IMG/VR virus record: IMGVR_UViG_3300023184_000139
Location: 1 to 59,173 of that record
Reading direction: 5' to 3' (one strand)
From: a virus
Length of the DNA stretch: 59,173 nt
Positions 1,725 to 22,292 of the stretch are shown in pieces (position 1 is the first letter of the stretch; each line of letters begins with the position of its first letter). The translations under genes and the position numbers were made by a program. A model generated the notes under the pieces. It did no database searches and was not told where the DNA came from. It saw nothing but the letters and a program-made list of their open reading frames with translations.

Positions 1725-1751
1725 AGGTAATAAAAACAATTAATTTTCACA

Positions 1752-3026: not shown

Positions 3027-3050
3027 AACAAAAACAAAATACAATTCAAA

Positions 3051-5954: not shown

Positions 5955-6233
5955 TTATTTAATTTTATTAACCTCATTAACAAATTTATGACACTTATCA
6001 GATACCTTACCTTTATCGTGGTCTGTAATAGATAACTTTACATTATCGTAATGAACCGTCATATCGGGGTGATGATTTTGTTTGTCAGCAATTTTCATCA
6101 CCTGATTTGTAAATGTCATAACCTCTTTATAATCTTTAAAATAAAATGTTTTAATTAATTTACCGTTTGTTTCCACCCAATCATTACTATTCATAATTTT
6201 ATTTTTTTGGTCTTCGGTTATTATTATTCTCAT
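5955..6233 (-). CDS. Pterin-4a-carbinolamine dehydratase
   Basis: A 92-residue protein with the PCD fold signature: FKDYKEVMTFTNQVMKIADK, then NHHPD (His54, His55), then a Tyr at 62 and DHD (His72), matching the three active-site histidines. The enzyme dehydrates 4a-hydroxytetrahydropterin to recycle pterin cofactor. The start is ATG 6233, one base after the upstream stop; the longer frame runs antisense-like through the previous gene and is not real. The segment after His72 is one or two residues shorter than usual. It lies in a late operon between a flavin reductase and a virion-like protein. The N terminus MRIIITEDQ resembles its neighbours. Confidence 0.85.
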   Translation of the reverse strand: MRIIITEDQKNKIMNSNDWVETNGKLIKTFYFKDYKEVMTFTNQVMKIADKQNHHPDMTVHYDNVKLSITDHDKGKVSDKCHKFVNEVNKIK

Positions 6234-6234
6234 A

Positions 6235-6996
6235 TTATAATTTAGTGTCTTTAATAAACTTTTTATATGAGTCTTTATAAGACTTTTGACTTTCATCATT
6301 AATATCTTTAGTGTATTGCCAATTCCAATATATGTCATCGTTAGGTTTAAATCCATAAAATGAATGAACTTGTTTTTGTAGATCAACAACATTACTTCCA
6401 TTCCAATTATGTCCCGTACAAATGTATCCAGATTCAATATCCTTTACTATGTTTGATTCATTTTGTGTTGTATGTCTATTTTCAATCCAATTAAGTCTTT
6501 CAATTAGATTTTGATAATACATATTTGTTTGCCCCCACCTTATTGAACTAAAGAATATAACTGCATCTGATTCAAATAGTTCTTTGGATATTTTCCAAAG
6601 TTCATCTGATTTGTTGTTGATACTCGCCCAACATCTGTGATGACCCGAAGGATTTTTATCCTTGTCTTCAAGTTTGGATTTTAATACTCCACATGAATCT
6701 CCGTCTTTTCTTGATACGTTACCTTCACAAGGAAATATCTTAAGTTCAGGTACATCTATTAATGTTGACTTATCACCTAATTCTTCATTAAGGTACATTG
6801 CAATCATTTTAGATTTTGGTATATCAATATCATTTTCGTCCCAATTATGTCTATTAGAACAACTTAATAGTAAAACTTTTTTCTTCTTTTTAAGAACATC
6901 TAACGTCTTTTTTAAAGATTTCCAAGCATCAGATTGTACCATCTCCTCAGAAATCATCATTTGTTTAATCCTTTGTATGTTCTCTTGTAAATTCAT
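6235..6996 (-). CDS. Flavodoxin-like NAD(P)H-dependent FMN reductase
   Basis: A 253-residue protein. After a tag-like N terminus (NLQENIQRIKQMMISEE) comes a flavodoxin fold: VLLLSCSNRHNWDENDI is the phosphate-binding strand-loop, followed by a helix with KSKMIAMYLNEEL, ELKIFPCEG, and DAVIFFSSIRWGQTNMYYQN, the counterpart of the P-x-Y-W-G segment that contacts flavin. Cys residues (CEG, SCG, RCW) are spaced as in iron-sulfur flavoprotein relatives but do not form a clear cluster motif. It probably reduces FMN or a quinone-like substrate. It is the second gene of the 7650-5201 operon and directly precedes the PCD gene. Confidence 0.72.
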   Translation of the reverse strand: MNLQENIQRIKQMMISEEMVQSDAWKSLKKTLDVLKKKKKVLLLSCSNRHNWDENDIDIPKSKMIAMYLNEELGDKSTLIDVPELKIFPCEGNVSRKDGDSCGVLKSKLEDKDKNPSGHHRCWASINNKSDELWKISKELFESDAVIFFSSIRWGQTNMYYQNLIERLNWIENRHTTQNESNIVKDIESGYICTGHNWNGSNVVDLQKQVHSFYGFKPNDDIYWNWQYTKDINDESQKSYKDSYKKFIKDTKL

Positions 6997-7650
6997 CTAT
7001 TTACATTTTTTCCATCCACCACCTTTTGATTTATAATCTTTTGCCGCAAATCCATTTGCATAGGCTGAAGGGTAGACATCAAATTTAGCTTTAGCTTTAG
7101 CCTTAGACGCGGCCCATTTCGCAGGATCTGTTGGACAATTCTTACTTTCGTCTATTTCACCATATGATTCATTTTTAGGTTCAACACCCTTTTTCTTCAT
7201 ATTGATAGCAATTGCAGCTTGTTGTGCAGGACTACTTGCTTCACTTACAGGTACACAGTTTGGAACTTTTTTACCGTTCTTCTTCTTACTACCAACTTGT
7301 TTGTAACCATCCCAACATTTTTCGTCTAATTGTCCTTCTTCGTTCATACTAAACTGATCCATATCTGCGGTTACATCTTGTTTATCTTTACTTTTAGTTT
7401 CATTCATAAAGAAATCAAAAACTTGATCCATATTGTTCTTAGCCTCAGACACGTGATCATCAGCCCAATCGTGACCGTTTTTAATAATTTGATCTAACTC
7501 TTGTGGATCCATTTTCATCAACATTTCACATTGTCTATGTATTTGTTGTAAATTACTGAAAAACATGTAGTTTTCAGTTGATTGATTTTCCTTTATAATC
7601 TTAGCTATATATTTTCTAAGATCGTTTTCTTTTAATTTAATAACTTTCAT
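6997..7650 (-). CDS. Modular virion-type protein with Cys-Tyr-Lys motifs
   Basis: A 217-residue protein and first gene of the late operon; the motif at 7655-7662 ends 4 bases before its ATG. The N terminus is KVIKLKENDLRKYIAKIIKE, a Lys-rich helix similar to those of neighbours. Two modules follow that I recognise from many marine and freshwater T4-like phage proteins: CWDGYKQVGSKKKNGKKVP-NC (about 111-131) and CPTDPAKWAASKAKAKAKFD continuing to VYPSAYANGFAAKDYKSKGG (about 171-210). Their function is not established. Association with DNA or the capsid interior is possible from their basic charge. Confidence 0.7.
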   Translation of the reverse strand: MKVIKLKENDLRKYIAKIIKENQSTENYMFFSNLQQIHRQCEMLMKMDPQELDQIIKNGHDWADDHVSEAKNNMDQVFDFFMNETKSKDKQDVTADMDQFSMNEEGQLDEKCWDGYKQVGSKKKNGKKVPNCVPVSEASSPAQQAAIAINMKKKGVEPKNESYGEIDESKNCPTDPAKWAASKAKAKAKFDVYPSAYANGFAAKDYKSKGGGWKKCK

Positions 7651-7654
7651 AAAT

Positions 7655-7662
7655 TATAAATA
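7655..7662 (-). promoter_or_regulatory. Late-promoter-like motif, cargo operon
   Basis: TATTTATA on the minus strand, 4 bases before the ATG at 7650. It would drive the four genes down to 5201. Confidence 0.6.
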
Positions 7663-7665
7663 GTT

Positions 7666-9054
7666 TTACTTTTCAGATAATATTTCAAATTTTATTGATT
7701 CGTTGTGATAAATTTCCTCAGTATGTGTCTTCGCTTTAATCTCTAAATGATATTCTCTCGGGATGTAATTGTTGGTATCCAAATAGAATGAGTTTTCATT
7801 GGTTTTATCCAATAAAGTCCAATCATGAACGTTTACGTCTACACTACCCTCTTTAATATATAATCTATAATAAACCTCATCAAATAATACCGATTTAGGA
7901 ACATCTAAAGATTTTATCGTAACAACCACTTTTCTAATGTCTCCGCGTTTAATTTTTTCACCTTGTTTAATACCAAAATATTGTATTTTATAACGTTGTA
8001 ATTCGGTTTGATTTTCACCAATTGTATATTGTGTCGTAAATGGTTTTGGTACAAATTTTTGACTTATATTCGCAAGTTCAACACCATCAATTGAAAGATC
8101 AGTCCAACGATCGTAGAAAAAACGTTTTCCATCACATAAATTACCGTCAATTCCTAATGTTACTTTATACACTCCTTTTTTAACTTGGGACACTAATTGT
8201 ATACCACCTAAACCTGTAATAATCGTTCCATTTGAATCTAATATATCAACCCTTGGCGTAGTATCTAAATCGTAAAAATTGGTACCTTTAGTGACATATA
8301 AATAAAGGTTATTAAACACACCCGCCGCAAAATTTTGTCTATTATCATCAATTCTATCATCAACAAATGTCTCAACATAAGGTTCAAAGAAAGTTTGTGT
8401 ATATTTTGTAAAAAATGAAACAGATTGTTCTGTCATAGGGGTCAAATCTTGAAATGGAACTGAAAACGCCAAACCAAATCCTTGATGTTGATTTAAAGTT
8501 CCAAATAGTAACATTGAATTAATGTGTGAAGTTATATCAACATTAATGTCTTCATTACCGTTATCAAAATGTATAGTTTGAATAATTGTTGGATTTTCCG
8601 CATATATACCTGAGGTTGCCCAACTGTCTAATGTGGTTCTATCATACCAATTTGAAGGTCTTTGATCAAATACTTTAAAACCATTTAATGCATCTGCATT
8701 AACATTAACATAATCAAATCCAACTCCTTCATCCCAAAACTCAGTTATTCTAAATAAAATTAAGTCAAATGATGTTGCTCTATCTCTACCTGTTGATCTT
8801 AATTGACCTTTAAATCCTTCGTCCCCAAAAATACAATTGGTTAAATGTAATGTATGTGTAATCTTACTAAGGTTGGCGACCGATAAGTCACCTGTCGTGA
8901 ACTTATTAATTAATTCAGTAAAATCTACCTTAAATATAAATTTAGAAAAACCACCACCATAATAGATCTCGGTTGTTGGGTTTTTAGCCGTATTAACCTG
9001 AGAATTCTTTATAATTGTGTTGTTCTTCTCAAAATAGGAACGTATATATGACAT
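7666..9054 (-). CDS. Hypothetical tail/baseplate structural protein
   Basis: A 462-residue, beta-rich protein without signal or membrane segments. The N terminus (SYIRSYFEKNNTIIKNSQVN) and the following repeats of strands resemble the DNRLRE-type beta-sandwich, then an Ig-like segment (KVTLGIDGNLCDGKRFFYD) and a final beta domain. It lies next to an OB-fold baseplate protein on the same strand, with its own late motif. A role in a baseplate appendage is inferred from position and fold class only. Confidence 0.6.
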   Translation of the reverse strand: MSYIRSYFEKNNTIIKNSQVNTAKNPTTEIYYGGGFSKFIFKVDFTELINKFTTGDLSVANLSKITHTLHLTNCIFGDEGFKGQLRSTGRDRATSFDLILFRITEFWDEGVGFDYVNVNADALNGFKVFDQRPSNWYDRTTLDSWATSGIYAENPTIIQTIHFDNGNEDINVDITSHINSMLLFGTLNQHQGFGLAFSVPFQDLTPMTEQSVSFFTKYTQTFFEPYVETFVDDRIDDNRQNFAAGVFNNLYLYVTKGTNFYDLDTTPRVDILDSNGTIITGLGGIQLVSQVKKGVYKVTLGIDGNLCDGKRFFYDRWTDLSIDGVELANISQKFVPKPFTTQYTIGENQTELQRYKIQYFGIKQGEKIKRGDIRKVVVTIKSLDVPKSVLFDEVYYRLYIKEGSVDVNVHDWTLLDKTNENSFYLDTNNYIPREYHLEIKAKTHTEEIYHNESIKFEILSEK

Positions 9055-9063
9055 CTTTTTTAT

Positions 9064-9072
9064 TAATAAATA
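9064..9072 (-). promoter_or_regulatory. Late-promoter-like motif
   Basis: TATTTATTA on the minus strand, 9 bases before the ATG at 9054, in the short gap after the OB-fold protein gene. Confidence 0.55.
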
Positions 9073-9077
9073 TCAAA

Positions 9078-10601
9078 TTAATTGATTCTAATTGATTTAT
9101 TTAATATGTCATTTTCAATAGTCTTAAAAAGTTCTTTTAATTGATTTCCCTCAGAATAGTCATATTGTCCAGAGATAGGCATTAAAGGGTTATGTCTATG
9201 AGTAAAAATTACCTCAATCATTTTACTCAACAATCTTAAAAGGTTTTCACCCCTCACAGTTGAGAAGGTCTTTGGGTCAATATTTTTAATATAATCTTGT
9301 TGTGATAAATCGTACCCGTTTAAGTCAAAAAATGGTATTGGGTCATTGGATTCGTTAGTACCTAAATCAGTGGATAAAAAATATATTTTATCCGCCATAA
9401 CCGTACCAAATGTTTGTTCTGGTGAATTAGGGTCAATATTAATTCTCTCTTCAATAGATTCAACTTCCTTAATTTCTAATTTTGCTTTAGTTTTTGACCA
9501 TATTAACCCACTTGACGGTCCAATTCTTAAAACATTAATATTATTTAAAATTAATTGCCTATTTGTAGCTTCCGTCGTATCTAAAATTTTTGTTTTAAAT
9601 GATTTACTTGGTCTAAAATAAAATGGATGAACTTCTCCACCTTCATATTGTTGATTTAGTTCGGTGAGATCTTTATCATGTATTAAAAATATTTTATCTC
9701 TAATTTCTCTATAGATGTCGTTAATTGAGGATGCGGTAACAGTATATGTTGGTGTTACACCATCACCTTCAGGATTAACTAACTTAACTAAAGATTCTGT
9801 CGCAACGGAATGTTCTGTAAAATAATTAGTTTTAAATTCATCACCATATGGTGTAATTACCTTATAAACATATAGATCTATTTTGGCCGGAGATTCATCA
9901 GATAAATCTTTTAATTTATCTACATCATATTCAATAATGTATTTAAGATCTTTATTGTCAGAAACATTATTTTTTACCACCACCTCCTCAAGAGTCATTT
10001 TTTTAGGAAATTTTTTGAGGTATATTCTTGATGATTTTCTAGCCATTATTGGGTAATCCAATAAAATTTCTCTGTTTGACGGACTAGCCGCCTCTTTTGA
10101 TAAAAGTTTACCACCTCTAAGTTGTAATCCGTTTTCAGTGAAAAGAACATCTGAATTGTTTTTACCATAAATTGCAAAATCTTTTTCTTCGGCAAAGGTA
10201 TTTTCAGATTTTTTATTTATGTAAGTTTTACTGACATTATTTCTAATATTTGGTTTATGTAAAACACTGGTTCCGTAAGTTGTATTCGCAACTTGTTGTG
10301 AAAATGTTTGACCGTTATAATCATACATTGTGGTAAATGGTCCGGCAATATACTCAGTATTTACCGTATCTTTATCAGTGTCATAGTTAATAATTTTAAC
10401 CGACTGATTAATTTCAGGTATGTAGTTTAGGTTACTAGGTAAAAATGGATTAGCTAAAAATAAATCCCTATCACTCCACGGTTCATAGTCAATTGCTTTT
10501 TCCTTTTGTCCTGGAACCTCATTATAACGAATAATTCGTATTCTACCAATACCTAATGGATCAACATTATCAATACATTTACCAATATCTATTATTTTCA
10601 T
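9078..10601 (-). CDS. Baseplate hub-associated protein with gp5-type OB fold
   Basis: A 507-residue protein. Residues 1-80 carry the pattern of a phage OB domain: GKCIDNVDPLGIGRIRI, then EPWSDRDLFLANPFLP and IPEINQSVKIINYD, as in the N-terminal domain of T4 gp5 and related spike or hub proteins. The C-terminal FTHRHNPLMPIS is also common in such proteins. There is no lysozyme domain and no long triple-beta-helix repeat, so this is not a full gp5. It overlaps the upstream 67-residue gene by 4 bases (ATGA). I infer that it is part of the baseplate centre. Confidence 0.62.
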   Translation of the reverse strand: MKIIDIGKCIDNVDPLGIGRIRIIRYNEVPGQKEKAIDYEPWSDRDLFLANPFLPSNLNYIPEINQSVKIINYDTDKDTVNTEYIAGPFTTMYDYNGQTFSQQVANTTYGTSVLHKPNIRNNVSKTYINKKSENTFAEEKDFAIYGKNNSDVLFTENGLQLRGGKLLSKEAASPSNREILLDYPIMARKSSRIYLKKFPKKMTLEEVVVKNNVSDNKDLKYIIEYDVDKLKDLSDESPAKIDLYVYKVITPYGDEFKTNYFTEHSVATESLVKLVNPEGDGVTPTYTVTASSINDIYREIRDKIFLIHDKDLTELNQQYEGGEVHPFYFRPSKSFKTKILDTTEATNRQLILNNINVLRIGPSSGLIWSKTKAKLEIKEVESIEERINIDPNSPEQTFGTVMADKIYFLSTDLGTNESNDPIPFFDLNGYDLSQQDYIKNIDPKTFSTVRGENLLRLLSKMIEVIFTHRHNPLMPISGQYDYSEGNQLKELFKTIENDILNKSIRIN

Positions 10602-10801
10602 TTCCCTGTATATCTTTTTTCTAATTCCTTATTAACTTTATTATATAAACTTTCAACACCATCTAAATGACGTGTTAAATCAATAATTAATTCTTTTGTT
10701 TTTTCAAATTCTTCCAATAATTCATCTGCAACAATGACTAAATCTTTATTAGATTTATTTTGTACATCGTTTGCTATTTCTATTAATTTTTGACTTTCCA
10801 T
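10598..10801 (-). CDS. Small helical protein
   Basis: A 67-residue protein, entirely helical and coiled-coil-like (ELLEEFEKTKELIIDLTRHL). It is translationally coupled to the OB-fold gene by a 4-base overlap and starts 3 bases after the upstream stop. It may be an assembly chaperone or small baseplate subunit; no family is recognised. Confidence 0.7.
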   Translation of the reverse strand: MESQKLIEIANDVQNKSNKDLVIVADELLEEFEKTKELIIDLTRHLDGVESLYNKVNKELEKRYTGK

Positions 10802-10804
10802 ATT

Positions 10805-12772
10805 TTAATTTTTCATTAATGCATATGATGGTGTCCCTACCGGTCCATTTATACTTTTAAATGGTGTTACCGCTAAATTATCAGCAAATCCTTGTACTTG
10901 TGCGGATGCTGAGAGTACGTGGTAATTTGGTTCTCCGTTTATATCCCCCGTCGGGATTCCCATGTTTTGCATTTTTTCTGTTATATCCATGGTTGTTTTA
11001 ACCGCACTGAATCCAGGTAATTTACCGGCTAATAATAAAAGTGGATTAGGTATATCTAAACCACCCGCAGCGGTTAACGCACCATTAATTGCCGCACCAA
11101 TTGCTGCAATAATAGCCTCACAACTATCTAATCCATTTTCAAGTATTTGTTTTAATAATGCAATTAATGCGGCAATAACAAGATAATACCTTTTTAATTT
11201 ATCTTTTAATATTTTTCTAATAATCTTCATTAAGAAATTTTTAAGATCCACTTTGACTCTTTTCCAAAATTCTCTAATAAATTTCCAAAATAACTCCTTT
11301 ATTACACACGTAAAAATCTTTTTTAATTTTTTCATTAACTCCTTTGCATCCATAACTAAGTTTTTAGCTGATGCAACAAATTGTTTATAAATTATAACAA
11401 ATGGTAAAAACATTTTAGGAGATATAATACTCATAATTAACGCCTTAGGGATATTAAAAATAAATGATAAATTAATTGAAATTTGAAAACTTGGTAAATC
11501 AATTGAAAAGTCAGATTGTTCGTATGCGTCGGATGCCGCCTTATTTAATGCACCGTCTATACGTTTTCTGGTATCTTGTTTGTCTTCTAAATAAATAAAA
11601 TCTTCAATATGTACAGTGTTATAAGGAACTTCGTAGTTACCACAATCTTTAAATTTTAACACTTTTCTTCTTCTAGCGTCTTCATCATCTAAATCAATTC
11701 CTTCAACATCGTCAAAATCAAAGTAAAACTCATCGTTTTCTTCTTCATCATGAAACAAATTAGTTGGGGTTTGTCCTGTTAATCTTCCATCATTACAAAA
11801 TGCAAATATTTTATTTAACATTCTCTCAAGACTATTAATTGCATCATCTAAAGATGGTGCAAAATCTAATGGATTTTCCATACCACTAAATGAACCACCG
11901 ACACTAACCCCATTTTTATCGGCAGATGCATTACAAGCTTTTAATGTCATTAACATCGCCTTTTTAAGTATTTCGTTCAAATCTGGCATCTCCATATTTG
12001 AATAATAGTCGTTAAAAAAATCGCCGACATTAACATTACCATAACTAATAACTCCACCAATATTTGTGGGTTGAGTTAAACCTGTAATAAAAAATCTTTG
12101 ATGTTCAGCTTGCCAATTTAAGTTAAATAATGTTTTATTGCTTGGTGTGTCATATTGAAACTGTAATCCGTTTGGTGTTGTTGTACCGGCACTTATAAAT
12201 GTTTGATAAAGTCCATAATTTATTTGAGCCTTAAGTCCATTTCTTTTTTTAGGGTTCTCATACATTATTTTACCATAATCACTTTCTGGAGGAACTTTAA
12301 ACATCCCTAAAAAATCAATTTCTTTTGGATAAATAAAAACTTCATCCATCTCTTGTGTTCCACCCATAACTTGATTAGCACCACAAATACCATCATTTGC
12401 AAAAAATGCGTTTTTAACACAATCCATTAGGATTTGTTTAGCTGAATTTTTTGTAACATCAACTGAATCTAATACATGTTGTCTAAGTCTTTGAGTTGAT
12501 TGAAATCTATCGGGATCATTAACGGTTCTACCCGCCTCTAAAAATTTATTAACAACTGAAACAACTTCTTCAAATATGTTTTTTTTATTTTTAGTTTTTG
12601 GTTTTTTGTTTCCTAATTTAGACTTAAGTTGTTCTAATTTAGTATTTAAATTGGGAAGATTGGGTGAAAACTTTTTAAGGGCATCCTCAGGACTTATATC
12701 AAGATCAATGTGTTTATCTTGATCCACAGTTTTTTGAATAATATCAATCGTGGTTTTTATCTTTTCAAACAT
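10805..12772 (-). CDS. Large structural protein with hydrophobic C-terminal segments
   Basis: A 655-residue protein. The first half is soluble with a Lys-rich linker (KLGNKKPKTKNKK near 50-65) and an acidic patch (DEEENDEFYFDFDDVEG near 345). Residues about 435-475 (INLSFIFNIPKALIMSII) and 525-590 contain long hydrophobic or amphipathic stretches (YYLVIAALIALLKQIL; AIIAAIGAAINGALTAAGG) that could be membrane-interacting. It lies among baseplate genes and overlaps its upstream neighbour at one base. It might be a hub or ejected protein that contacts the host membrane; that role is inference. Confidence 0.6.
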   Translation of the reverse strand: MFEKIKTTIDIIQKTVDQDKHIDLDISPEDALKKFSPNLPNLNTKLEQLKSKLGNKKPKTKNKKNIFEEVVSVVNKFLEAGRTVNDPDRFQSTQRLRQHVLDSVDVTKNSAKQILMDCVKNAFFANDGICGANQVMGGTQEMDEVFIYPKEIDFLGMFKVPPESDYGKIMYENPKKRNGLKAQINYGLYQTFISAGTTTPNGLQFQYDTPSNKTLFNLNWQAEHQRFFITGLTQPTNIGGVISYGNVNVGDFFNDYYSNMEMPDLNEILKKAMLMTLKACNASADKNGVSVGGSFSGMENPLDFAPSLDDAINSLERMLNKIFAFCNDGRLTGQTPTNLFHDEEENDEFYFDFDDVEGIDLDDEDARRRKVLKFKDCGNYEVPYNTVHIEDFIYLEDKQDTRKRIDGALNKAASDAYEQSDFSIDLPSFQISINLSFIFNIPKALIMSIISPKMFLPFVIIYKQFVASAKNLVMDAKELMKKLKKIFTCVIKELFWKFIREFWKRVKVDLKNFLMKIIRKILKDKLKRYYLVIAALIALLKQILENGLDSCEAIIAAIGAAINGALTAAGGLDIPNPLLLLAGKLPGFSAVKTTMDITEKMQNMGIPTGDINGEPNYHVLSASAQVQGFADNLAVTPFKSINGPVGTPSYALMKN

Positions 12773-13152
12773 TATAATGAATAGTTACTTGATTTATTAT
12801 CGTTTCCGTCATTAACCAATCTATCCAAAATCTCACGATCTTCGTCAGATAAAGTCAATTTACCCATAGAACCCCCACCACTTCCAGATCCACCGGTGGT
12901 TTGTTTAAGTAAAACACTTTGTAATTTAACTAATGAAATTTTCTTTTCTGTACAATCATTTAAGATCTTCTGTTGTTCTTTAATAACAGGTCCAATTGTA
13001 CTCATGTCTTCTGCGTCCTTCATAAAACTCATCATTTTTCTCAAAATGGTTGAGGCGGTATTTCTATTCTCAACGACATCGTTGTAGATCTCCTGCATTA
13101 AGGCTAACGCCGAATCAACATCTAATGTAATATTGTTTCTTTGTGTTCTCAT
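12772..13152 (-). CDS. Small helical protein with Gly/Ser linker
   Basis: A 126-residue protein. The N-terminal 85 residues are helical (NITLDVDSALALMQEIYNDV), followed by a GGSGSGGGS linker (about 92-100) and an acidic helix (LTLSDEDREILDRLVND). The late-type motif at 13155-13163 ends 2 bases before the ATG. It begins the baseplate operon 13152-9078. The family is not recognised. Confidence 0.68.
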   Translation of the reverse strand: MRTQRNNITLDVDSALALMQEIYNDVVENRNTASTILRKMMSFMKDAEDMSTIGPVIKEQQKILNDCTEKKISLVKLQSVLLKQTTGGSGSGGGSMGKLTLSDEDREILDRLVNDGNDNKSSNYSL

Positions 13153-13154
13153 AT

Positions 13155-13163
13155 CAATAAATA
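13155..13163 (-). promoter_or_regulatory. Late-promoter-like motif, baseplate operon
   Basis: TATTTATTG on the minus strand, 2 bases before the ATG at 13152 and 3 bases past the end of the sigma factor gene. It separates the sigma operon from the virion operon downstream. Confidence 0.55.
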
Positions 13164-13166
13164 GAT

Positions 13167-14647: not shown

Positions 14648-14648
14648 A

Positions 14649-15704
14649 TTATTCTTGTTCTTTTTTTAGATTTTCTAATGCCTTTGTAAATGTCTCAACT
14701 CTCTTATTTGTAAATGAATTGAAAATTGATAAGATATTATTTTTAGTTATTTCAGTTTCATATGGTAATAAAGTATCTTTCATTTTTTGTTTAACTTCGT
14801 CAGTTAATTCAACTCCGTCTAACCAAGCTAAAACAAATGTTCCTAAAATGTCAACTAATTTATTTTCATCATAAGTCCACATACCATTTTCATTTAACCA
14901 ACCAGGTTCTGTACTTGGTATTTTACCAATAACAGGAACGCCCGATTTCATTGATTCTAATGGGAATGTACCAAATGTTGATTCGTCATCCACCCATAAT
15001 GAAACCATACAATCTTTTAGTCCTTCTGAAAATTCCTCATATGTCATTTGTACCATATCTTTAAAAGTGATCCAACGTAAATGTGGATATTTTAAATAAA
15101 ATTCGGAAATAAATTTTCTATGTTTAACTCTATCTCTACAACTAATTGCAATGTAAGGTTTTACGATACCTTCGGTAGGTTTAAAATTATCTCCAATAAT
15201 TGGAGGGGTTATATGAACTAATACTTCAGGGAAAACCTCTTGAATATATTTTTTTGATTCTTCTGTTGTTGTAATAACTCTATCAAAACCATAATCACTC
15301 CAACGACTACCGACTGGTAATGTTTCAAAAATATATTCTTTTTGTTGTATCAACATAACTTTAGTACATCTTACGTTTGCTAATTGTTGTAGTACATTTG
15401 AATAATATTCAGGAACAACAATAACGTCATCAATTTGAATATTAACTTTATCTTCTTTGATTGATACAAGTTCTAAAACGTCATATTTTTCACCTAACCA
15501 TTCAGGTCTAATATATGATTTATCTTCTGTTAAAATTTTTGGAGTGTGTCCGTTTTCTTTTAACGTTAAAGCCATATCATAGATATGTTTAATTGCCGCT
15601 CTAGCATTATTTTTAGTATCATACGTTAAAAAATATATAACGTTTTCTTTTGTTTCTAACCTTCCTAAGGCTGATTCAAGTTTTTCTATGTTTTCTTTAC
15701 TCAT
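14649..15704 (-). CDS. Glycosyltransferase, GT-B (group 1-like)
   Basis: A 351-residue protein. The N-terminal Rossmann domain begins at about residue 22 (NVIYFLTYDTKNNA). The C-terminal domain has the donor-binding block STFGTFPLESMKSGVPVIG (about 262-280), whose Glu is the E of the E-x7-E type motif. It overlaps the upstream 94-residue gene by 8 bases and is one base from the GT-A gene. It probably acts with that enzyme on the same acceptor. Confidence 0.82.
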   Translation of the reverse strand: MSKENIEKLESALGRLETKENVIYFLTYDTKNNARAAIKHIYDMALTLKENGHTPKILTEDKSYIRPEWLGEKYDVLELVSIKEDKVNIQIDDVIVVPEYYSNVLQQLANVRCTKVMLIQQKEYIFETLPVGSRWSDYGFDRVITTTEESKKYIQEVFPEVLVHITPPIIGDNFKPTEGIVKPYIAISCRDRVKHRKFISEFYLKYPHLRWITFKDMVQMTYEEFSEGLKDCMVSLWVDDESTFGTFPLESMKSGVPVIGKIPSTEPGWLNENGMWTYDENKLVDILGTFVLAWLDGVELTDEVKQKMKDTLLPYETEITKNNILSIFNSFTNKRVETFTKALENLKKEQE

Positions 15705-15981
15705 CTTCGTCTTCTATTAAAATTTGATTTTTTATTAATGTGTTAAATGCTATTCTGAAAGATACTGATGTCCCTTCTTGTGCAAATTTTCCAAGCCCTT
15801 CGTCAACTTCATCAATTTCACCTAAAACCCTATCCAAACACATTTTTATAATTTCGTATTTGAATATGTTTACTTCAGTTACTTCAGTTCCGTCTTCGTC
15901 TGGGATTGTTCCTCCTGTTCTACATTTCTCTGTGATTCCATCAAGGTCAATGTAGTAGTTTTTTCCAAAGATTTCAACCAT
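15697..15981 (-). CDS. Conserved small acidic phage protein
   Basis: A 94-residue acidic protein (VEIFGKNYYIDLDGITEKC, then NIFKYEIIKMCLDRVLGEID, then SFRIAFNTLIKNQILIED). I have the impression of a conserved helical protein of Bacteroidota phages but cannot name a function. Its start lies about 100 bases inside the upstream HAD-like gene in another frame, an unusually long overlap in this genome. It also overlaps the following glycosyltransferase. Confidence 0.7.
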   Translation of the reverse strand: MVEIFGKNYYIDLDGITEKCRTGGTIPDEDGTEVTEVNIFKYEIIKMCLDRVLGEIDEVDEGLGKFAQEGTSVSFRIAFNTLIKNQILIEDEDE

Positions 15982-16562
15982 GGTTCGTTTATTTCTATTA
16001 ATTTAGATATTTCTTTACCATAAGTAAAGAATTGATTATAAGTGGTATTGAATTTAATTCCAGTTTTGTTCTCAGGAATTAGGTCAATAATCTTTTTATT
16101 GTCAGTGATCCACACATCACATTGTTTCCAATTATCTTCAATATCTTTTGTTTTAATAAATTTAATATTATTACCAAGATATCCATTTTTAGATAAAAAA
16201 AATAATGTTGCAGGTTTTGCTTTACCTAACTCATCCAACCCAACTAATGTAAAATTATGTTCGGGGTTATCAAATAAAATTTTGTGTAAATCGGTAAATG
16301 TAGTTGAATAACTTAATCCGGCGTGACCAAATATTTCAATTGGATATTCAATAAATAAAAAGTTTTCAAACTCTTCTTGTGATTGAAATTTGTATGAATT
16401 TAAAAGATTATCATTTTGAATAGGTTCAGTAACGGCATATTCAAATGTGTTTTCTTCTCCTTCAATTGTAATATCACTATTAAAATATGATTCATTATAA
16501 TGATAATCAAACTTTTGAATTGTATTTCTTAAAACACCATCAATACTAATATATATTTCCAT
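15879..16562 (-). CDS. HAD-like protein lacking the nucleophile Asp
   Basis: A 227-residue protein starting at ATG 16562 (MEIYIS). YISIDGVLRNT matches HAD motif I (DxDGVLxx), but the first Asp, the phosphoryl nucleophile, is Ser here. DVWITDNKKIIDLIPEN (about 162-178) resembles HAD motif IV. The fold looks like small phage or bacterial nucleotidase-type HADs, so a binding rather than catalytic role is likely if the family call is right. The last 100 bases overlap the next gene. The start is preceded by TATATTTT 4 bases upstream. Confidence 0.62.
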   Translation of the reverse strand: MEIYISIDGVLRNTIQKFDYHYNESYFNSDITIEGEENTFEYAVTEPIQNDNLLNSYKFQSQEEFENFLFIEYPIEIFGHAGLSYSTTFTDLHKILFDNPEHNFTLVGLDELGKAKPATLFFLSKNGYLGNNIKFIKTKDIEDNWKQCDVWITDNKKIIDLIPENKTGIKFNTTYNQFFTYGKEISKLIEINEPWLKSLEKTTTLTLMESQRNVEQEEQSQTKTELK

Positions 16563-16566
16563 TGTA

Positions 16567-16597
16567 AAAATATACAACGAATTGAATTATAAGTAAA
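16567..16597 (-). promoter_or_regulatory. Weak host-type promoter candidate
   Basis: On the minus strand: TTTA, 19 bases, TATATTTT (16567-16574), one mismatch from each box of the Bacteroidota consensus. It lies between PhoH and the HAD-like gene, 4 bases before the ATG. AT-rich background makes chance matches easy. Confidence 0.35.
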
Positions 16598-16599
16598 TA

Positions 16600-17334
16600 C
16601 TAATCGTATCTATTCAATATTTCACCGATGATTGGGTTTCTTACAATATCTTGCATTCCAAATTCAAAAATACCAATTCCCTTTACATCTTCTAATCTCA
16701 TTTTAGCATCATATAAACCAGATTTTGTTTTATCTCTGAATTTATCTGATTGTTCAAGATCACCAGAAATAAAGAATTTAGAATTAAAACCGATACGAGT
16801 TAATAATAACTTAATCTGTGACGGTGTCGCATTTTGAGCTTCTTCAAAAACAAGGATAGTATTATCCACATTCCAACCTCTCATATATGCAAGTGCAGCA
16901 ACTTCAATATAACCTTGGTCTTTTAACTCCTCACGAGCCTCTTTACCAATAATCTTATTTAAAAGATAATATGATGGATAGATGTACGGATCTAATTTCT
17001 CCTCTAAACCCCCTGGAAGTGACCCTAATTTCTCTTCAGCTTCAACTGCGGGTCTTACTATAATAATTTTCTCATACTTGTTAGAATCGTCGTATAATAG
17101 GTCTACCGCACGTTTCATCGCTATGTAGGACTTACCTACACCTGCGGGACCAAAACATAATGTAATTTGATTTTCTCCAAGAATATTCCAATAGGTTTCT
17201 TGGTTTTTGGTTAGGAACTTTTCTTTAGGACGTTTAATGATTTGTCTAATCTTATCCTTATGTGATATCTTCTTTTCTTCTACTAATACGGGTGATGGTT
17301 GGTGAGATGTTTTGGTTCTTGTTTTATACGCCAA
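16600..17334 (-). CDS. phoH: PhoH-like ATPase
   Basis: A 244-residue protein with Walker A GPAGVGKS (62-69) and Walker B ILVFEEAQN (160-168), plus the PhoH blocks IIVRPAVEAEEKLGSLPGG and FFISGDLEQSD. PhoH-like proteins are common in phages; an RNA helicase/nuclease-linked role is proposed for relatives. The start appears to be TTG (17332-17334, then GCG TAT AAA), since no in-frame ATG precedes it before a stop. A late-type motif lies 31 bases upstream at 17366-17374, unusual for a non-structural gene here. Confidence 0.9.
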   Translation of the reverse strand: MAYKTRTKTSHQPSPVLVEEKKISHKDKIRQIIKRPKEKFLTKNQETYWNILGENQITLCFGPAGVGKSYIAMKRAVDLLYDDSNKYEKIIIVRPAVEAEEKLGSLPGGLEEKLDPYIYPSYYLLNKIIGKEAREELKDQGYIEVAALAYMRGWNVDNTILVFEEAQNATPSQIKLLLTRIGFNSKFFISGDLEQSDKFRDKTKSGLYDAKMRLEDVKGIGIFEFGMQDIVRNPIIGEILNRYD

Positions 17335-17365
17335 AGTGAATAGTTTTAAGGGTTCCGTTTATTGT

Positions 17366-17374
17366 TAATAAATA
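17366..17374 (-). promoter_or_regulatory. Late-promoter-like motif upstream of phoH
   Basis: TATTTATTA on the minus strand, 31 bases before the TTG start of phoH and just past the end of the dUTPase gene. It is the only copy that serves a gene without a virion or ribosome role. Confidence 0.5.
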
Positions 17375-17377
17375 TCA

Positions 17378-18001
17378 TCATTTTCCTGTAGATCCAAATC
17401 CACCACTACCTCTTTCAGTATCTGATAACTCAGGAACCTCCGTCATATATATGGTAGGATAAGGTAATATGATAATCTGTGCACCTCTTTCACCCACTTT
17501 ATATTTAATTGAATCCAAACCTTGAGTTTTCTTAAATGTTGCCTGTAATTCTCCTCTATATCCACTATCAATTACACCAACACAATTTGATAATATTAAA
17601 TCTTGATTACGAACTGATGATCTTGGGAAAACTAACCCAACATAACCTTTAGGAATTTCCATTGCGATACCAAAACCATAAGATACACTAAATGATGTAT
17701 TTTCAATTTCTTTTGTAATGGTTAAATCCATACCAGCATCACCAACTTTTGAATACGATGGTATTACGGCATTTAAATCTAATTTTTTTACTTTAATTAA
17801 AACACCACTGTTTGTGGTTGGTTGAGTGTTAATAATATTTTGTCCGTCAACAGGAGGAGTTGAAAAATCTTCTTGTAATTTATTTAATAAATCATTTAAT
17901 TCGGTAACAAAATTTAAATCAATTTCTTCATCATCCGAACCTATTGTTTTTTCAAAATTTTCTAATTGTTTAAGATAATTTTCTACATCTTCTTTTTCCA
18001 T
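17378..18001 (-). CDS. dut: dUTP diphosphatase with N-terminal extension
   Basis: A 207-residue trimeric-type dUTPase. All five motifs are visible: GDAGMDL (87-93), PRSSV (126-130), GVIDSGYRGELQ (142-153), GERGAQIIILP (170-180) and RGSGGFGSTG (197-206). It hydrolyses dUTP to dUMP, lowering uracil in DNA and feeding dTMP synthesis. The first 65 residues are an acidic helical extension not found in typical dUTPases of about 140 residues; its role is unknown. It lies in the operon read from 19723-19753. Confidence 0.95.
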   Translation of the reverse strand: MEKEDVENYLKQLENFEKTIGSDDEEIDLNFVTELNDLLNKLQEDFSTPPVDGQNIINTQPTTNSGVLIKVKKLDLNAVIPSYSKVGDAGMDLTITKEIENTSFSVSYGFGIAMEIPKGYVGLVFPRSSVRNQDLILSNCVGVIDSGYRGELQATFKKTQGLDSIKYKVGERGAQIIILPYPTIYMTEVPELSDTERGSGGFGSTGK

Positions 18002-18002
18002 A

Positions 18003-18218
18003 TTATTTGTTTTTCTTTTCTTCTAACCATTTATCTAACGCCTTAATTCTTTGTTTAAGGTTATCATCTTGTGGACGTAAACATATCTCCACAAATAAAT
18101 CGGTAATTCTTACCAACTCCTCAAGAGTAACAGAGACACCAACTGATGTAACATACTCTAAAGCCATTTTACTTTGCGATTGACGCATAATTTGTATTTC
18201 ACGACTATAGAATTCCAT
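18003..18218 (-). CDS. Small helical hypothetical protein
   Basis: A 71-residue protein, helical throughout (EFYSREIQIMRQSQSKMALE; LEELVRITDLFVEICL), with a Lys-rich C terminus. It starts 19 bases after the DUF4494-like gene and ends one base before the dUTPase start. I do not recognise the family; size and charge resemble small DNA-binding or regulatory phage proteins. Confidence 0.7.
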   Translation of the reverse strand: MEFYSREIQIMRQSQSKMALEYVTSVGVSVTLEELVRITDLFVEICLRPQDDNLKQRIKALDKWLEEKKNK

Positions 18219-18237
18219 ATCAGTTGGTGTTTAATTG

Positions 18238-18474
18238 TTATTTACTTTTGTAATACTCGGGTGTGTTCTTTTCGTCAATCACACACTCAATTGGAAATTT
18301 AGCGACACTTAAACTTTCGCTACCTCTAATGTCACCTTCACGATATCTTGCTGCAACAATTGTTGCTTCTTCTACCGATTCAGCTTGAATTACGTATTTT
18401 ACTTTTTTAACACGAGGGTTTCCTTCTCTGTCCATTTGTTCGGTTTCATAACCGATTGTAACTTGATAATACAT
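18238..18474 (-). CDS. DUF4494-like protein
   Basis: A 78-residue protein: YYQVTIGYETEQMD, then KVKYVIQAESVEEATIVAAR, then ESLSVAKFPIECVI. The order of a beta strand, a central strand plus helix carrying the EA-A pattern, and a final strand resembles DUF4494, a small family known mainly from Bacteroidota and their phages. The function is unknown. It supports the host guess and is second in the glycosyltransferase-sigma operon. Confidence 0.6.
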   Translation of the reverse strand: MYYQVTIGYETEQMDREGNPRVKKVKYVIQAESVEEATIVAARYREGDIRGSESLSVAKFPIECVIDEKNTPEYYKSK

Positions 18475-18481
18475 GTTGTTT

Positions 18482-19702
18482 CTATTTAATTATTGATTTA
18501 AAAAATTCTACTCTATCTTTACATACTTTCTTTAATGAGTATGTGTCTTTAACTGTTTCATATAAACGATTACCTAAGTCTTCAATCATATTAGGATTTT
18601 CAACTAAACGTTTCATATGTTTTGCCCAATCTTTATGGTTCTTTTTAGAACCTACTAATAGTGCGTTTCCTTTGTCGTTAAACTTACCTTCATCAACCGC
18701 CGAAATTAAATCAATTGTGAAAGGGTCAACATCACTTGCGATGATAGCCTTCTTAAAAAAACCGGCTTCAATTACTTTTAATTGTGATTTATTGGCATTG
18801 AATACTGAGTCAACTAAAGGTGCTAATGACACATCAAAGGTATTGTAGTTTGTTGCATAACTATTAATATCTTTAGTCCATCTTCTTCTATATGGTTCAT
18901 TTGTGTCATTGTAATTTCCATCTGTAAATGTACCTAAATAATTTTTATATTCGGGACTTAACACTTTAAAATTGTCAGTGAAAAATCCTTCATATTTATA
19001 CCATACTGTTTCTGTTGGTTGTATAGGTCTTTGTTGTTGTTTACCTTCTTGATCAATCACAGTAACGGTGCCTCTTGTATCAAACCCACATAAAACAAAT
19101 TGTACTTTATCTTTAAATAAATTATATGTGGAAGAAATTCCATTAGACATTAATTCTAAATCGTGTAAATGTGATGACCCACCTAACCAACCGAATCTAA
19201 CTTTATCTGATTTAATTGATTTATTTTGAAATTGAGGTTCGTCTTCATTTACCGCATTTGGAAAAACAACAACATTACTAACTTTTAATTTGTCTTTAAT
19301 TGTTTGAGCAAATATTGAAGTTGTGGTGCTAACATAATCAACAGTCTTTAACATGTCAATTTTCATCTCACCAACTTTATTCATTTTAATTGCCATATAC
19401 ATTGGATGTCTCTGATCAACAAACCATAAATCATCAATGTCCATTACAGTGATAATACCTTTGGATTTTAACCAATTAATTCTTTTAATGTTATGTTCGT
19501 GATTTGTTTGATGGATAAAAGTATGGAAAACTACAATATCGTAGTTTAAAAAATAATCATCTCTATCTTCCGCATTATACGAAATATCCACGTGAATATC
19601 CTCTGAATGTTTATCTGAAATGAATACAAATGGATCCATCATTCTAAACTTACCTACACCATGCTTATCGGATGGAATCGCTAAAATTCTAATTTTTGAC
19701 AT
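18482..19702 (-). CDS. Glycosyltransferase, GT-B (GT4-like)
   Basis: A 406-residue protein. The N-terminal domain starts RILAIPSDKHGVGKFRM; ITVMDIDDLWFVD lies near residue 90. The C-terminal domain has RFGWLGGSSHLHDLE (about 168-182), then FDVSLAPLVDSVFNANKSQL and KVIEAGFFKKAIIASDVDPF, the equivalent of the GT4 donor-binding E-x7-E region. It is the first gene after the host-type promoter and the head of the operon ending in the sigma factor. The target is unknown. Confidence 0.82.
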   Translation of the reverse strand: MSKIRILAIPSDKHGVGKFRMMDPFVFISDKHSEDIHVDISYNAEDRDDYFLNYDIVVFHTFIHQTNHEHNIKRINWLKSKGIITVMDIDDLWFVDQRHPMYMAIKMNKVGEMKIDMLKTVDYVSTTTSIFAQTIKDKLKVSNVVVFPNAVNEDEPQFQNKSIKSDKVRFGWLGGSSHLHDLELMSNGISSTYNLFKDKVQFVLCGFDTRGTVTVIDQEGKQQQRPIQPTETVWYKYEGFFTDNFKVLSPEYKNYLGTFTDGNYNDTNEPYRRRWTKDINSYATNYNTFDVSLAPLVDSVFNANKSQLKVIEAGFFKKAIIASDVDPFTIDLISAVDEGKFNDKGNALLVGSKKNHKDWAKHMKRLVENPNMIEDLGNRLYETVKDTYSLKKVCKDRVEFFKSIIK

Positions 19703-19722
19703 TTAAATTAACTTATATGTCT

Positions 19723-19753
19723 AAAATATAACTAAAAAAATTGGAAAAACAAA
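19723..19753 (-). promoter_or_regulatory. Bacteroidota-type host promoter for the sigma operon
   Basis: On the minus strand: TTTG (19753-19750), 19 bases, TATATTTT (19730-19723), one mismatch from the TTTG / TAnnTTTG consensus. It ends 20 bases before the ATG at 19702. It would transcribe the glycosyltransferase, dUTPase and sigma genes with host RNA polymerase before the late switch. Confidence 0.55.
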
Positions 19754-19754
19754 A

Positions 19755-20324
19755 TTACTTGGCTTTATTTACTCCTGTAATTTTACCCTTGAAAATAGAG
19801 TCTCCCACCTTCAATACTAAATTTTCATTAATAGATGATGTTGTAGATGCGGTAAGAATTTGATTTAATTTTTCATCCATTACTTTACGAACTGTATTTT
19901 CAATAAGAACTGCAATTGCGTTCATGTCAATATTGTTATTAACGATAGTTTGTTTTGATTGTGCGGAAGGTCTTGTTGCAACACCTTCTTGTTCCATTAA
20001 ACGTTTTGCACCTTTAACAAAATCCATATCTAAAGTATCATTTAAAGAAATTTGTTGAATTGGGTTTTCCATCATTGCTTTTTTAATTGCATCAGGTAAT
20101 TTTGAATTTTGAATTTTATCAATATTCATATTACCACCTACTGGTCTTGTATTAGGTTGTTGAGGTGTTTGCATTTCCATTAATTCTGAAGGATCAGATC
20201 TTAACACTTCACTATTAACATGACCTCTTTCATAATTTCCACCGTCAACTTTATTCATTACTTTTTTTGCTTGTACTAACTTTTTCATTAAATCGTTAGA
20301 TGATATTGATCCTTGTTGTGACAT
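19755..20324 (-). CDS. Hypothetical virion-type protein
   Basis: A 189-residue protein. The N-terminal half is polar, Gln/Pro/Asn-rich and probably disordered. A helix with DMNAIAVLIENTVRKVMDEK (about 136-155) and a short beta C terminus (NLVLKVGDSIFKGKITGV) follow. The late motif ends only 2 bases before the ATG. The family is not recognised. Its own late promoter and the neighbouring tagged proteins suggest a virion role. Confidence 0.65.
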   Translation of the reverse strand: MSQQGSISSNDLMKKLVQAKKVMNKVDGGNYERGHVNSEVLRSDPSELMEMQTPQQPNTRPVGGNMNIDKIQNSKLPDAIKKAMMENPIQQISLNDTLDMDFVKGAKRLMEQEGVATRPSAQSKQTIVNNNIDMNAIAVLIENTVRKVMDEKLNQILTASTTSSINENLVLKVGDSIFKGKITGVNKAK

Positions 20325-20326
20325 GT

Positions 20327-20335
20327 TAATAAATA
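20327..20335 (-). promoter_or_regulatory. Late-promoter-like motif, 2 bases from start codon
   Basis: TATTTATTA on the minus strand, then AC, then ATG (20324-20322). If transcription starts 5-7 bases past the motif, as in T4 late promoters, it would start inside the first codons. Confidence 0.55.
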
Positions 20336-20357
20336 TTTTATATTATAATAAACTATT

Positions 20358-21107
20358 TTAAGAAAACATTAAACGCTTAATATTTTTAATACTTTCTTGT
20401 AAATTTTTATTTTCCTCATCCTCTTCAGGATTTGCAACAGGTTTTTCTGTTTGTTTTGGTTGGGGTAATTCTTGTGTTTTTGCTTGTGTTGTTTCAGGTT
20501 CCGTTTGTGTTGGTTCAGGTTTTGACACAACTTTCTCAGGTTTAGTTTGAGTTTTTGGTTGTGGTAGTTCTGTTGTTTTTGGTTCCTCGGGTGTAGTCGT
20601 TGTTGTCGGCTCAACATTCGGAGTTGGTTCCGTTGTTGCAGTTGCCGAAGGAACTGCGGGTTTTGGTTTAATAATCCTTGGTTTTTTAACATCAGGTTTA
20701 TTAGTCCAATCTGTTGTCACATAAGTAACACTCATTGATCTATCATCACCCTCTTTATAGTCAGGTCTTTTTTGATCAAATTTATCATCACTAATTCTTA
20801 AATCACTCATTCTACCAACCATAAATGTTCTCCATCCCGTTTTATCAAATCCTTTTTTAGAAACTGACGGTGGTTGAACATACGCACGAATAACTAAATT
20901 ACCTCTTTTACTTAATCCTAAAGCAACCGCCTCAGCATCAATTCTTTTACCTGGTTTTACACTATCTTTTAATGGTTTTCTTGGTCCCGTATAGAAAAAA
21001 GAAATCTTATTCCTATTTTTGATTGCGTCAACTATAGGTTTAGTTTTAGATGTCTTTAAAATATTTTGTTCTTCAAGTATCTTGAAGATCGTATTGGTAA
21101 AACTCAT
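20358..21107 (-). CDS. WYL-like domain protein with Pro/Thr-rich linker and C-terminal tag
   Basis: A 249-residue protein. Residues about 22-115 follow the WYL-domain pattern: IVDAIKNRNKISFFYTG, an R-I-D-A-E strand, LGLSKRGNLVIRAYVQPP, and WRTFMVGRMSDLRISD. Residues about 145-230 are a Pro/Thr/Gln/Glu linker. The last residues LQESIKNIKRLMFS match a motif at the N terminus of the FMN reductase and the C terminus of the 21801-22292 product. WYL domains usually bind ligands or nucleic acid in regulators; this one has no DNA-binding domain and sits in a late virion operon. Confidence 0.68.
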   Translation of the reverse strand: MSFTNTIFKILEEQNILKTSKTKPIVDAIKNRNKISFFYTGPRKPLKDSVKPGKRIDAEAVALGLSKRGNLVIRAYVQPPSVSKKGFDKTGWRTFMVGRMSDLRISDDKFDQKRPDYKEGDDRSMSVTYVTTDWTNKPDVKKPRIIKPKPAVPSATATTEPTPNVEPTTTTTPEEPKTTELPQPKTQTKPEKVVSKPEPTQTEPETTQAKTQELPQPKQTEKPVANPEEDEENKNLQESIKNIKRLMFS

Positions 21108-21799
21108 TATGTTGTTGGGTGTCTATTATATTCTTTTTTAGAGTTATAACTATTTTTACCTGTGTTTTCAGTTCTTTTTAAAATATCAGTTTTAGAACCA
21201 ACGGTTCCATTTTCATCTTTAGGTCCTTTACCGTTTTCATCTCCATCAGATATTGCATCAGGATTTGTACTATTATAAAGATTCTTTTTATTAAATTTAT
21301 TTTTAACTAAATTTTCTTTTCTTTTTAAAACGTCAGTTTTAGAACCAACTTCTCCCGTTTCACCTCTTTGTCCTTTACCAAACTCATCGCCATTAGAAAT
21401 TGCATTAGGATTATTAACACCATATTGATTATTTAATTTATACGTGTTTTTACTTAATAATAAATTTCTATTTGCAATATCTATAGACGTTCCTATTGCA
21501 ACATTATCTTCCTTTTGACCTCTTCCTTTTTCATCACCATCTGCTAATGCATTTGGGTTTGTTAAACTATATTGATTATTTTCATTATAGGCATTTCTAC
21601 CTAAACTTGAAATTCTATTTTGTATATCTGTGGTTGAGCCAACTTTATTACTATCACCTATTTGACCTTTACCTTTTTCATCTCCGTCAGATAAAGCATT
21701 AATATTTTGACTGTTATATAAATTCTTTTCATTATAAGAATTTCTTGTTAGAGATTCTTTTCTAAATTGTTCTGATATTTGATCTAATTTTGTTGCCAT
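21107..21799 (-). CDS. Protein of four 49-residue repeats with DGDE loops
   Basis: A 230-residue protein. The DGDE (once NGDE) tetrads start at residues 38, 87, 136 and 185, an exact 49-residue period. Each repeat reads roughly YN-x-N-x-Y, NPNA-S-DGDE-x-GKGQ, V-G-S-x-T-D-I, R. The loop D-G-D-E-x-G has acidic residues at positions 1, 3 and 12, so calcium binding is conceivable. It is strongly polar with no membrane segment. It overlaps the WYL-like gene start by one base and lies in the late operon 23034-20358. It may be a repetitive virion or DNA-bound protein. Confidence 0.72.
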   Translation of the reverse strand: MATKLDQISEQFRKESLTRNSYNEKNLYNSQNINALSDGDEKGKGQIGDSNKVGSTTDIQNRISSLGRNAYNENNQYSLTNPNALADGDEKGRGQKEDNVAIGTSIDIANRNLLLSKNTYKLNNQYGVNNPNAISNGDEFGKGQRGETGEVGSKTDVLKRKENLVKNKFNKKNLYNSTNPDAISDGDENGKGPKDENGTVGSKTDILKRTENTGKNSYNSKKEYNRHPTT

Positions 21800-21800
21800 A

Positions 21801-22292
21801 TTATAACATTAATTTTTTTATTCTTTTAACTTGTTCAAATAAACCAGTTAATTTTATTGACTCCACTGAATTTTTTTCTGAGTTAGAATTAAATTTAAAT
21901 GACGGTAACCAACTTGATTTTTTTGTATGTTTTTTTAAGAAACTATTTTTTCTTTCTCCTGTTGTACTTGAAATATCGTCGGCTTGTTTTCTACCCTCTT
22001 TTCTATTTTGAATTAAATCTCTTTCTCCCTGAAGATATTGTTTAGACCAAGAATCCATTAAGTCACCACCAGCCAAGTCATACCTAACTCTATCAGCAAC
22101 TTTATCCATACCTTGTATGTCATGAATAATTCGTTTAAGTTGACCATATGTTACTTTTTTATCAGTTAATAGTTTTTTTGCTCTCATCACCCCATGCACA
22201 TTTTGACCGTTAAGACCTGTAACCGTATGGTTGATCTTATCTAATATGTTTTGGGGTAAATCAAAGTCCCTATTTTTTAATTCTTTATTCAT
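21801..22292 (-). CDS. Hypothetical virion-operon protein with C-terminal tag
   Basis: A 163-residue basic protein. Residues 10-85 are helical (NVHGVMRAKKLLTDKKVTYG; LKRIIHDIQGMDK; RYDLAGGDLMDSW). The end GLFEQVKRIKKLML matches the tag seen at the ends of two other proteins and includes the L-x-E of a gp21-type cleavage site. It overlaps the upstream gene by 8 bases. The family is not recognised. Confidence 0.7.
   Translation of the reverse strand: MNKELKNRDFDLPQNILDKINHTVTGLNGQNVHGVMRAKKLLTDKKVTYGQLKRIIHDIQGMDKVADRVRYDLAGGDLMDSWSKQYLQGERDLIQNRKEGRKQADDISSTTGERKNSFLKKHTKKSSWLPSFKFNSNSEKNSVESIKLTGLFEQVKRIKKLML

Follow-up and report, generated by a model that had tools for sequence, protein, structure and literature searches.

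The window analysed here, i.e. the whole stretch of 59,173 bases, is the IMG/VR record IMGVR_UViG_3300023184_000139 of a T4-like phage. Three of its proteins carry a short terminal peptide, here called the RIKxLM tag, which resembles the C-terminal end of the scaffold protein of the same phage and probably directs its carriers into the prohead. The T4-like assignment rests on an S77 prohead protease, an acidic scaffold and a gp23 capsid protein encoded consecutively at 979-4817. These head genes, the tagged proteins and the tags are as follows (a slash marks a predicted cut):

979..1662, plus strand: prohead protease, T4 gp21-like (Peptidase S77; Pfam PF03420, 1.7e-21)
1752..3026, plus strand: scaffold protein (gp22-like), named from its site between protease and gp23 and its acidic composition; no match in Pfam or PHROG
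2955..3023, plus strand: C-terminal end of the scaffold, LSE/SKAYENPQFSRIKEMMRKIK, predicted site and tail
3051..4817, plus strand: major capsid protein gp23 (Pfam PF07068, 5.7e-73)
6235..6996, minus strand: flavodoxin-fold FMN/quinone-reductase-like protein with N-terminal tag (Foldseek on a model)
6955..6993, minus strand: N-terminal tag NLQENIQRIKQMM, residues 2-14 of the 6235-6996 protein
6946..6954, minus strand: predicted cleavage site I-S-E after this tag, from the sequence of the 6235-6996 protein
20358..21107, minus strand: WYL-like protein with C-terminal tag
20367..20405, minus strand: C-terminal tag NLQESIKNIKRLM (NLQE/SIKNIKRLM) of the 20358-21107 protein, 2 residues ahead of the stop
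21801..22292, minus strand: 163-residue protein with a disordered linker and C-terminal tag (AlphaFold2, AF2)
21807..21845, minus strand: C-terminal tag GLFEQVKRIKKLM (GLFE/QVKRIKKLM), 1 residue ahead of the stop

The three clear copies reported in the first-pass annotation are all at the protein ends given there, on the minus strand, and its pattern has exactly these three matches across the six frames of the window. The helical moment of the window tags is high (0.59-0.76). NLQENIQRIKQMM is retained in 14 aligned homologues, and the glutamate in the tag of the 163-residue protein is invariant across 25. The AF2 model of the latter consists of a high-confidence body, a disordered linker at residues 128-148 (below 50) and an isolated helix at 149-162, which matches the expectation for a tag on a string. 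The L-x-E within each copy had been noted as the core of the T4 gp21 cleavage site. In the C-terminal tags the predicted cut is indeed there, but the useful site of the N-terminal copy is probably I-S-E at residues 15-17 (predicted cut MMISE/E), because a cut at the inner L-x-E would leave the helix on the protein. The protein names also required qualification. 'FMN reductase' refers to fold only, and to a low-confidence model (mean pLDDT 63; best Foldseek value 3.7e-5, with SP1951 with FMN and the FMN reductase SsuE), the protein having no Pfam match and no sequence relative in PDB. 'WYL-like' derives from a weak Pfam match (1.3e-4) in a homologue, the window protein itself having none. The WYL-like protein also has an N-terminal leader, MSFTNTIFKILEE, ending in a predicted cleavage site, and a leader ending in [IL]xE is present in its family even in homologues without the C-terminal extension.

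The tag was counted in a related set of 18 contigs (77-336 kb, 3655 called proteins), which comprises 3 among the nearest by protease and 15 tag-bearing contigs with an S77 protease, these 15 being picked for holding a motif match. A relaxed regular expression, composed once the motif had been seen, gives 46 matches in this set, 33 at the N-terminus, 11 at the C-terminus and 2 internal. Thus, 44 of the 46 are terminal, whereas terminal windows make up 14.9% of all windows (p = 3e-34), and the mean for shuffled proteins is 0.15 matches. The first-pass annotation had counted a motif lying mainly inside unrelated proteins against its own proposal; this is not the distribution found. With proteins holding the strict search motif excluded, 28 of 30 matches are terminal (p = 2e-21), and the count per protein cluster is 25 N-terminal, 4 C-terminal and 2 internal. 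In IMG/VR, the pattern E-x-I-x-R-I-K-x-[LF]-M has at least 120 loci; the 123 matches among those listed are divided into 42 N-terminal, 48 C-terminal, 19 internal, 8 in short frames and 6 with stops, and deduplication of those listed gives 40 C-terminal, 30 N-terminal, 3 N-terminal via a nearby ATG, 5 internal and 1 at an edge. The identical pattern in GTDB (at least 117 loci) gives 15 N-terminal, 9 C-terminal, 1 via a nearby ATG, 32 internal, 28 short frames, 27 stops and 5 duplicates. Among the distinct coding matches listed, 73 of 78 in viral contigs are terminal, versus 25 of 57 in cellular genomes (p = 1e-10). The pattern might have favoured protein ends in general, but this explanation was rejected, as cellular genomes give 25 terminal and 32 internal matches. 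A permuted pattern was likewise rejected, having 35 loci in the complete IMG/VR collection, mostly short frames (7 N-terminal, 1 C-terminal, 22 short frames and 5 stops).

The carriers of the tag are diverse. When tags were removed and the bodies clustered by BLASTP at 1e-6 with single linkage, scaffolds left out, the RIKxLM tag was found on 43 clusters with unrelated bodies, 34 N-terminal and 9 C-terminal. Pfam searches with 30 of the 43 cluster representatives gave nine matches above the curated cut-off, two below it and 19 representatives without a match. The nine are WYL (weak), M23 plus VanY, PAP2, DeoC aldolase, PG_binding_1, a shikimate-kinase-like family, PQ-loop, anti-CBASS Acb1 (1.1e-7) and L5 gp82, the last being in a cluster member with a type E leader (described below). 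Contig G048 encodes ten N-tagged proteins, five of which are in tandem at 31575-35074 (L309); one product of the tandem is homologous to the FMN-reductase-like protein of the window, and another is P-loop kinase-like. The Acb1-like protein (L343:12195-12761, minus strand; 192195-192761 of contig G056) carries a RIKxIM tag at the N-terminus, followed by GLNE. Judged by its sequence, it is a candidate counter-defence protein that would be delivered together with the genome.

The tag has a counterpart in the scaffold. All 18 scaffolds end in Y-[EV]-x-[PA]-Q-[FI]-x-[RA]-[MI]-[KR]-[DE]-[LM]-[MI] plus a few residues, mostly as Y-E-N-P-Q-F-x-R-[MI]-K-[DE]-[LM]-M with small deviations, and all have L-x-E three residues ahead of this tail, so the order, site and then helix, matches that of the C-terminal tags. 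The window scaffold terminates in ENPQFSRIKEMMRKIK. Its PQFSRIKEMM (2982-3011, with RKIK between it and the stop) had been described as a weaker version of the tag; the string is indeed present, but the scaffold version appears to be the original from which the tag derives. For a profile built on 17 scaffold tails alone, 44 of the top 110 matches in other proteins are terminal; five profiles with shuffled columns gave 16 to 29. A second form of the tag occurs in the cultured Flavobacterium phage immuto 2-6A, whose capsid protein aligns with 56% of the query at 41% identity. Its scaffold terminates in SEQVSRWQKLAGIIK, and two further proteins start with MKKQILSEQFKRMQFLAGIITE and MKKQILSEQFRRMQKLAGIITE (MKKQILSEQF[KR]RMQ[FK]LAGIITE); tail and cargo tags there are both of the form RxQxLAGI, and none of the remaining immuto proteins (232 called) has a terminal match to the regular expression used. 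Scanning IMG/VR for the immuto-type form gave 77 matches at 74 loci, 55 N-terminal (one of which, in L461, is so called by a nearby Met only, its frame extending 156 residues upstream), 20 C-terminal and 2 in which the locus ends before the tag. Nine distinct C-terminal matches look like the immuto scaffold end. Comparison of the window lineage with immuto therefore indicates that tail and tag share a core within a lineage and differ between lineages; at the level of sequence, the tag is similar to the scaffold C-terminus of the same phage in both. Related tails, LERIKRLAGL and VERMKKLAGIVK, are found on the scaffolds of RM378 and Mel-JY01, which were named by position.

Cleavage sites and a suitable protease accompany the tag. 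T4 gp21 cleaves after L/I-x-E, according to the available part of the source (PMC9026906). Within 12 residues past the tag, [IL]xE is present in 17 of 25 N-tag clusters; of the untagged proteins, 524 of 3165 have it at corresponding positions (p = 2e-8). Among C-terminal tags, 10 of 11 start with [IL]xE. The predicted gp21-type sites thus appear to be on the right side, past most N-terminal tags and at the start of C-terminal ones. An S77 protease was detected in 28 of 49 tag-bearing records versus 6 of 35 control records, the sizes of which were not matched; the survey input was 50 of the at least 120 loci, and many records are fragments. For the immuto-type tag, S77 was found in 15 of 25 records (25 of the 74 loci surveyed).

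Loading into the prohead had been proposed in the first-pass annotation, and capsid targeting with gp21-type removal is the best-supported reading because of the terminal position, the scaffold-tail likeness, the side on which L/I-x-E lies and the S77 linkage, to which the unrelated carriers and the second shared form in immuto are added; the cleavage site, the role of the scaffold and the 56357 leader have been corrected. The tag is thus, with good probability, a removable propeptide that targets proteins to the prohead by mimicking the scaffold (gp22-like) tail. At either terminus of an unrelated protein, it would dock this protein to the partner of the scaffold tail, candidates during prohead assembly being the inner face of gp23, the core and the portal base. 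The gp21-type protease would cut the neighbouring L/I-x-E, which lies past an N-terminal tag but opens a C-terminal one, and the body would stay within the head and probably be ejected along with the DNA.

Several observations weigh against this reading. First, two of the tagged proteins, one with a PQ-loop membrane domain and the other an M23/VanY hydrolase, would be odd head cargo. Second, 66 of the top 110 matches to the scaffold-tail profile are internal, and one of the 44 terminal ones is the G049 scaffold, which had not been set aside beforehand. Third, the pairing of tail and tag within one genome is limited to the window lineage and immuto: in 15 more immuto-type contigs the position search mostly failed to place both, no convincing cargo copy was found in RM378 or in Mel-JY01 (the latter beyond its first 5043 bases), RM378 having a single loose C-terminal match, KLKWISM, and the end of T4 gp22, when compared, has no such tail. 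Fourth, the immuto-type tag is not clearly amphipathic, with a moment of 0.20-0.36, no higher than that of shuffles. Fifth, 8 of 25 N-tag clusters are without strict [IL]xE within 12 residues, three of them having V-x-E. Sixth, S77 was not detected in 21 of the 49 tag-bearing records, two of which exceed 100 kb (G029, 153 kb; G037, 107 kb). A single one of these 21 encodes gp23, truncated where the contig ends, and four contain a match to another protein of the window; the remainder are presumably fragments, although G029 and G037 are long.

The tagged proteins might instead be extra core proteins, anchored by the tag in the prohead core and then degraded and discarded like T4 gp67 and gp68. 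The C-terminal tag of the 163-residue protein persists, unchanged or as a variant, in 25 aligned homologues, and three proteins with other leaders lie between protease and scaffold in G042; both observations would suit such a role. However, tags on enzymes and on a patchily distributed Acb1 relative fit cargo better, and most families are not universal across the 18 contigs, so this alternative is unlikely. Still less probable is an amphipathic helix serving another purpose, such as membrane attachment, oligomer formation or a degradation signal, in proteins acting together in the infected cell. It would accord with the high moment of the window tags and with the PQ-loop membrane segments of one tagged protein, but predicts neither the scaffold-tail likeness, nor the second form shared in immuto, nor the placement of L/I-x-E, and the low moment of the immuto-type tag speaks against it. 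A repeat or recombination site that acts at the DNA level to spread genes, with no peptide function, is a very improbable explanation and largely excluded by the codon pattern: the tandem tagged genes of G048 have similar DNA, but nine G048 tags differ at second codon positions in 9% of pairs and at third positions in 38%, and the motif is in frame at 5′ and 3′ gene ends alike (strings of the second lineage, chosen by a fixed pattern, are little informative in this test). Chance likeness of short helices can be dismissed, since, for all the shortness of the motif and a ferritin-like protein at 57033 that fits a looser form by chance, there are 46 matches against 0.15 expected, 44 of them terminal.

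The proposed prohead-targeting propeptide can be compared with several known systems. Cargo-loading peptides of encapsulins are likewise short terminal peptides that load enzymes into an HK97-fold shell, but they are not known to be removed or to involve a phage or a scaffold. The closest likeness is to the T4 capsid-targeting sequences (CTS) of IPI, IPII and IPIII, which are removed by gp21: both are short terminal propeptides next to L/I-x-E on unlike bodies, a 10-residue leader targeting IPIII as far as the available text describes (PMC9026906), and both occur with an S77 protease and T4-like head genes. They differ in that the T4 sequences are N-terminal, whereas the tag is used at either end (C-terminal in 11 of 46 matches and 9 of 43 families), and in that gp22 has no similar tail, whereas the tag is like the end of the scaffold and occurs on 43 families. 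The working would thus be CTS-like without restriction to the N-terminus, and with the scaffold-tail likeness in addition. T4 Alt is cleaved at both ends and loses a C-terminal propeptide at L-x-E, but this propeptide has 63 residues, versus about 10-15 here, and Alt is a single protein for which the consulted part of the source reports no common tag (PMC5694885). In SPN3US and phiKZ, a related protease cleaves propeptides off head proteins behind an x-x-E motif, but many of those in SPN3US exceed 100 residues (PMC5694885), and no scaffold-tail copy is described in the available parts of the two sources (PMC5694885; PMC9026906). In engineered P22, cargo also enters the shell via the C-terminal part of the scaffold, but as a man-made fusion to residues 141-303 and, in the portion of the source at hand, with no removal by an L-x-E protease (PMC9962691); the tags here are natural and have about 12 residues. 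In the open-access literature, no paper was found with the tag peptide strings, shorter strings giving chance word matches among those listed; a search by topic gave no title on such a tag, and no virion proteomics of immuto was found among the matches listed.

The RIKxLM tag is not the only recurrent leader in these genomes. Three more N-terminal types occur, KLTESDLxRIVKRVIxE (LTESDL), IIITExQ and SExEKxRIxxLH, and the window has the following other leaders:

6195..6233, minus strand: type E leader MRIIITEDQKNKI on the 5955-6233 protein
7588..7650, minus strand: type B leader MKVIKLKENDLRKYIAKIIKE on the 6997-7650 protein
56357..56434, plus strand: a different leader, MLEKKLLEEVKRFNAINKYSKKMIME, conserved in 7 relatives and not the RIKxLM motif

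The 56357 product had been said to start with a helix similar to the tag. Its leader, MLEKKLLEEVKRFNAINKYSKKMIMEQ, does not fit the pattern and is of a different type, for which a regular-expression search gave no match. In the 18 contigs and immuto, 46 of 47 type B, 17 of 17 type D and 34 of 35 type E matches are N-terminal, and the three types are found on 50, 17 and 33 clusters, respectively. Pfam searches with 69 of the 92 representatives without the RIKxLM tag matched eight families: lysozyme, PG_binding_1 and DUF6576 twice each, and singly a nucleoside deoxyribosyltransferase, a cell-wall hydrolase, two carboxypeptidase-regulatory-like domains and Clink. None of these matches is to a family of replication, terminase or tail proteins. 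Related bodies have differing tag types in five clusters, cluster 8 through a shared domain only. In the clearest swap, the 6997-7650 protein has MKVIKLKENDLRKYIAKIIKE in the window and L009, and a type E leader, MKKIIISEDQLKKIIE or a close form, in L029 and L021, whose proteins are 85% and 82% identical to that of the window. A large mixed-tag cluster was not used as evidence for tag swapping, being chained via a common downstream module. It is slightly better than an even guess that the T4-like phages of this clade have a general virion address code, in which any protein is loaded once it has a copy of the scaffold tail at its N- or C-terminus or a leader of another type, of which there are at least three. 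The injected set of uncultured phages, with anti-defence proteins like Acb1, peptidoglycan hydrolases and redox enzymes, could then be read from sequence alone.

Injected phage proteins are usually known only through proteomics of cultured virions, and with a sequence tag that marks them, predicted injected proteins could be listed straight from metagenomic contigs. The scaffold-tail likeness would also explain, in a directly testable way, how internal proteins reach the prohead, and short, self-removing loading tags might be of use for engineered capsids.

Further shared segments were observed in these genomes. The 6997-7650 protein has, at about residues 80-138, a module like KKKNGKKVPNCVP that matches several PHROGs of unknown function, and in L191 a similar stretch, KGMKTMFGKRYPNCVKK, lies directly ahead of an internal RIKKLM match; this is possibly another shared virion module. 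The window protein at 22285-23034 has a near-invariant leader, MNNFIKQVIEE (23002-23034, minus strand), which may be another propeptide, the bodies of its relatives being 42-62% identical. Four immuto genes (MW353175, from 1803, 103806, 117631 and 118632) encode proteins with a common leader, FDLKKFLxENKLTxNSxLLxE or nearly so, another lineage-specific type. Finally, an L434 protein ends in a RMQKLAG tag, and its L461 counterpart continues for 105 residues beyond the tag, an arrangement resembling the fusion of a C-tagged gene to an N-tagged one.

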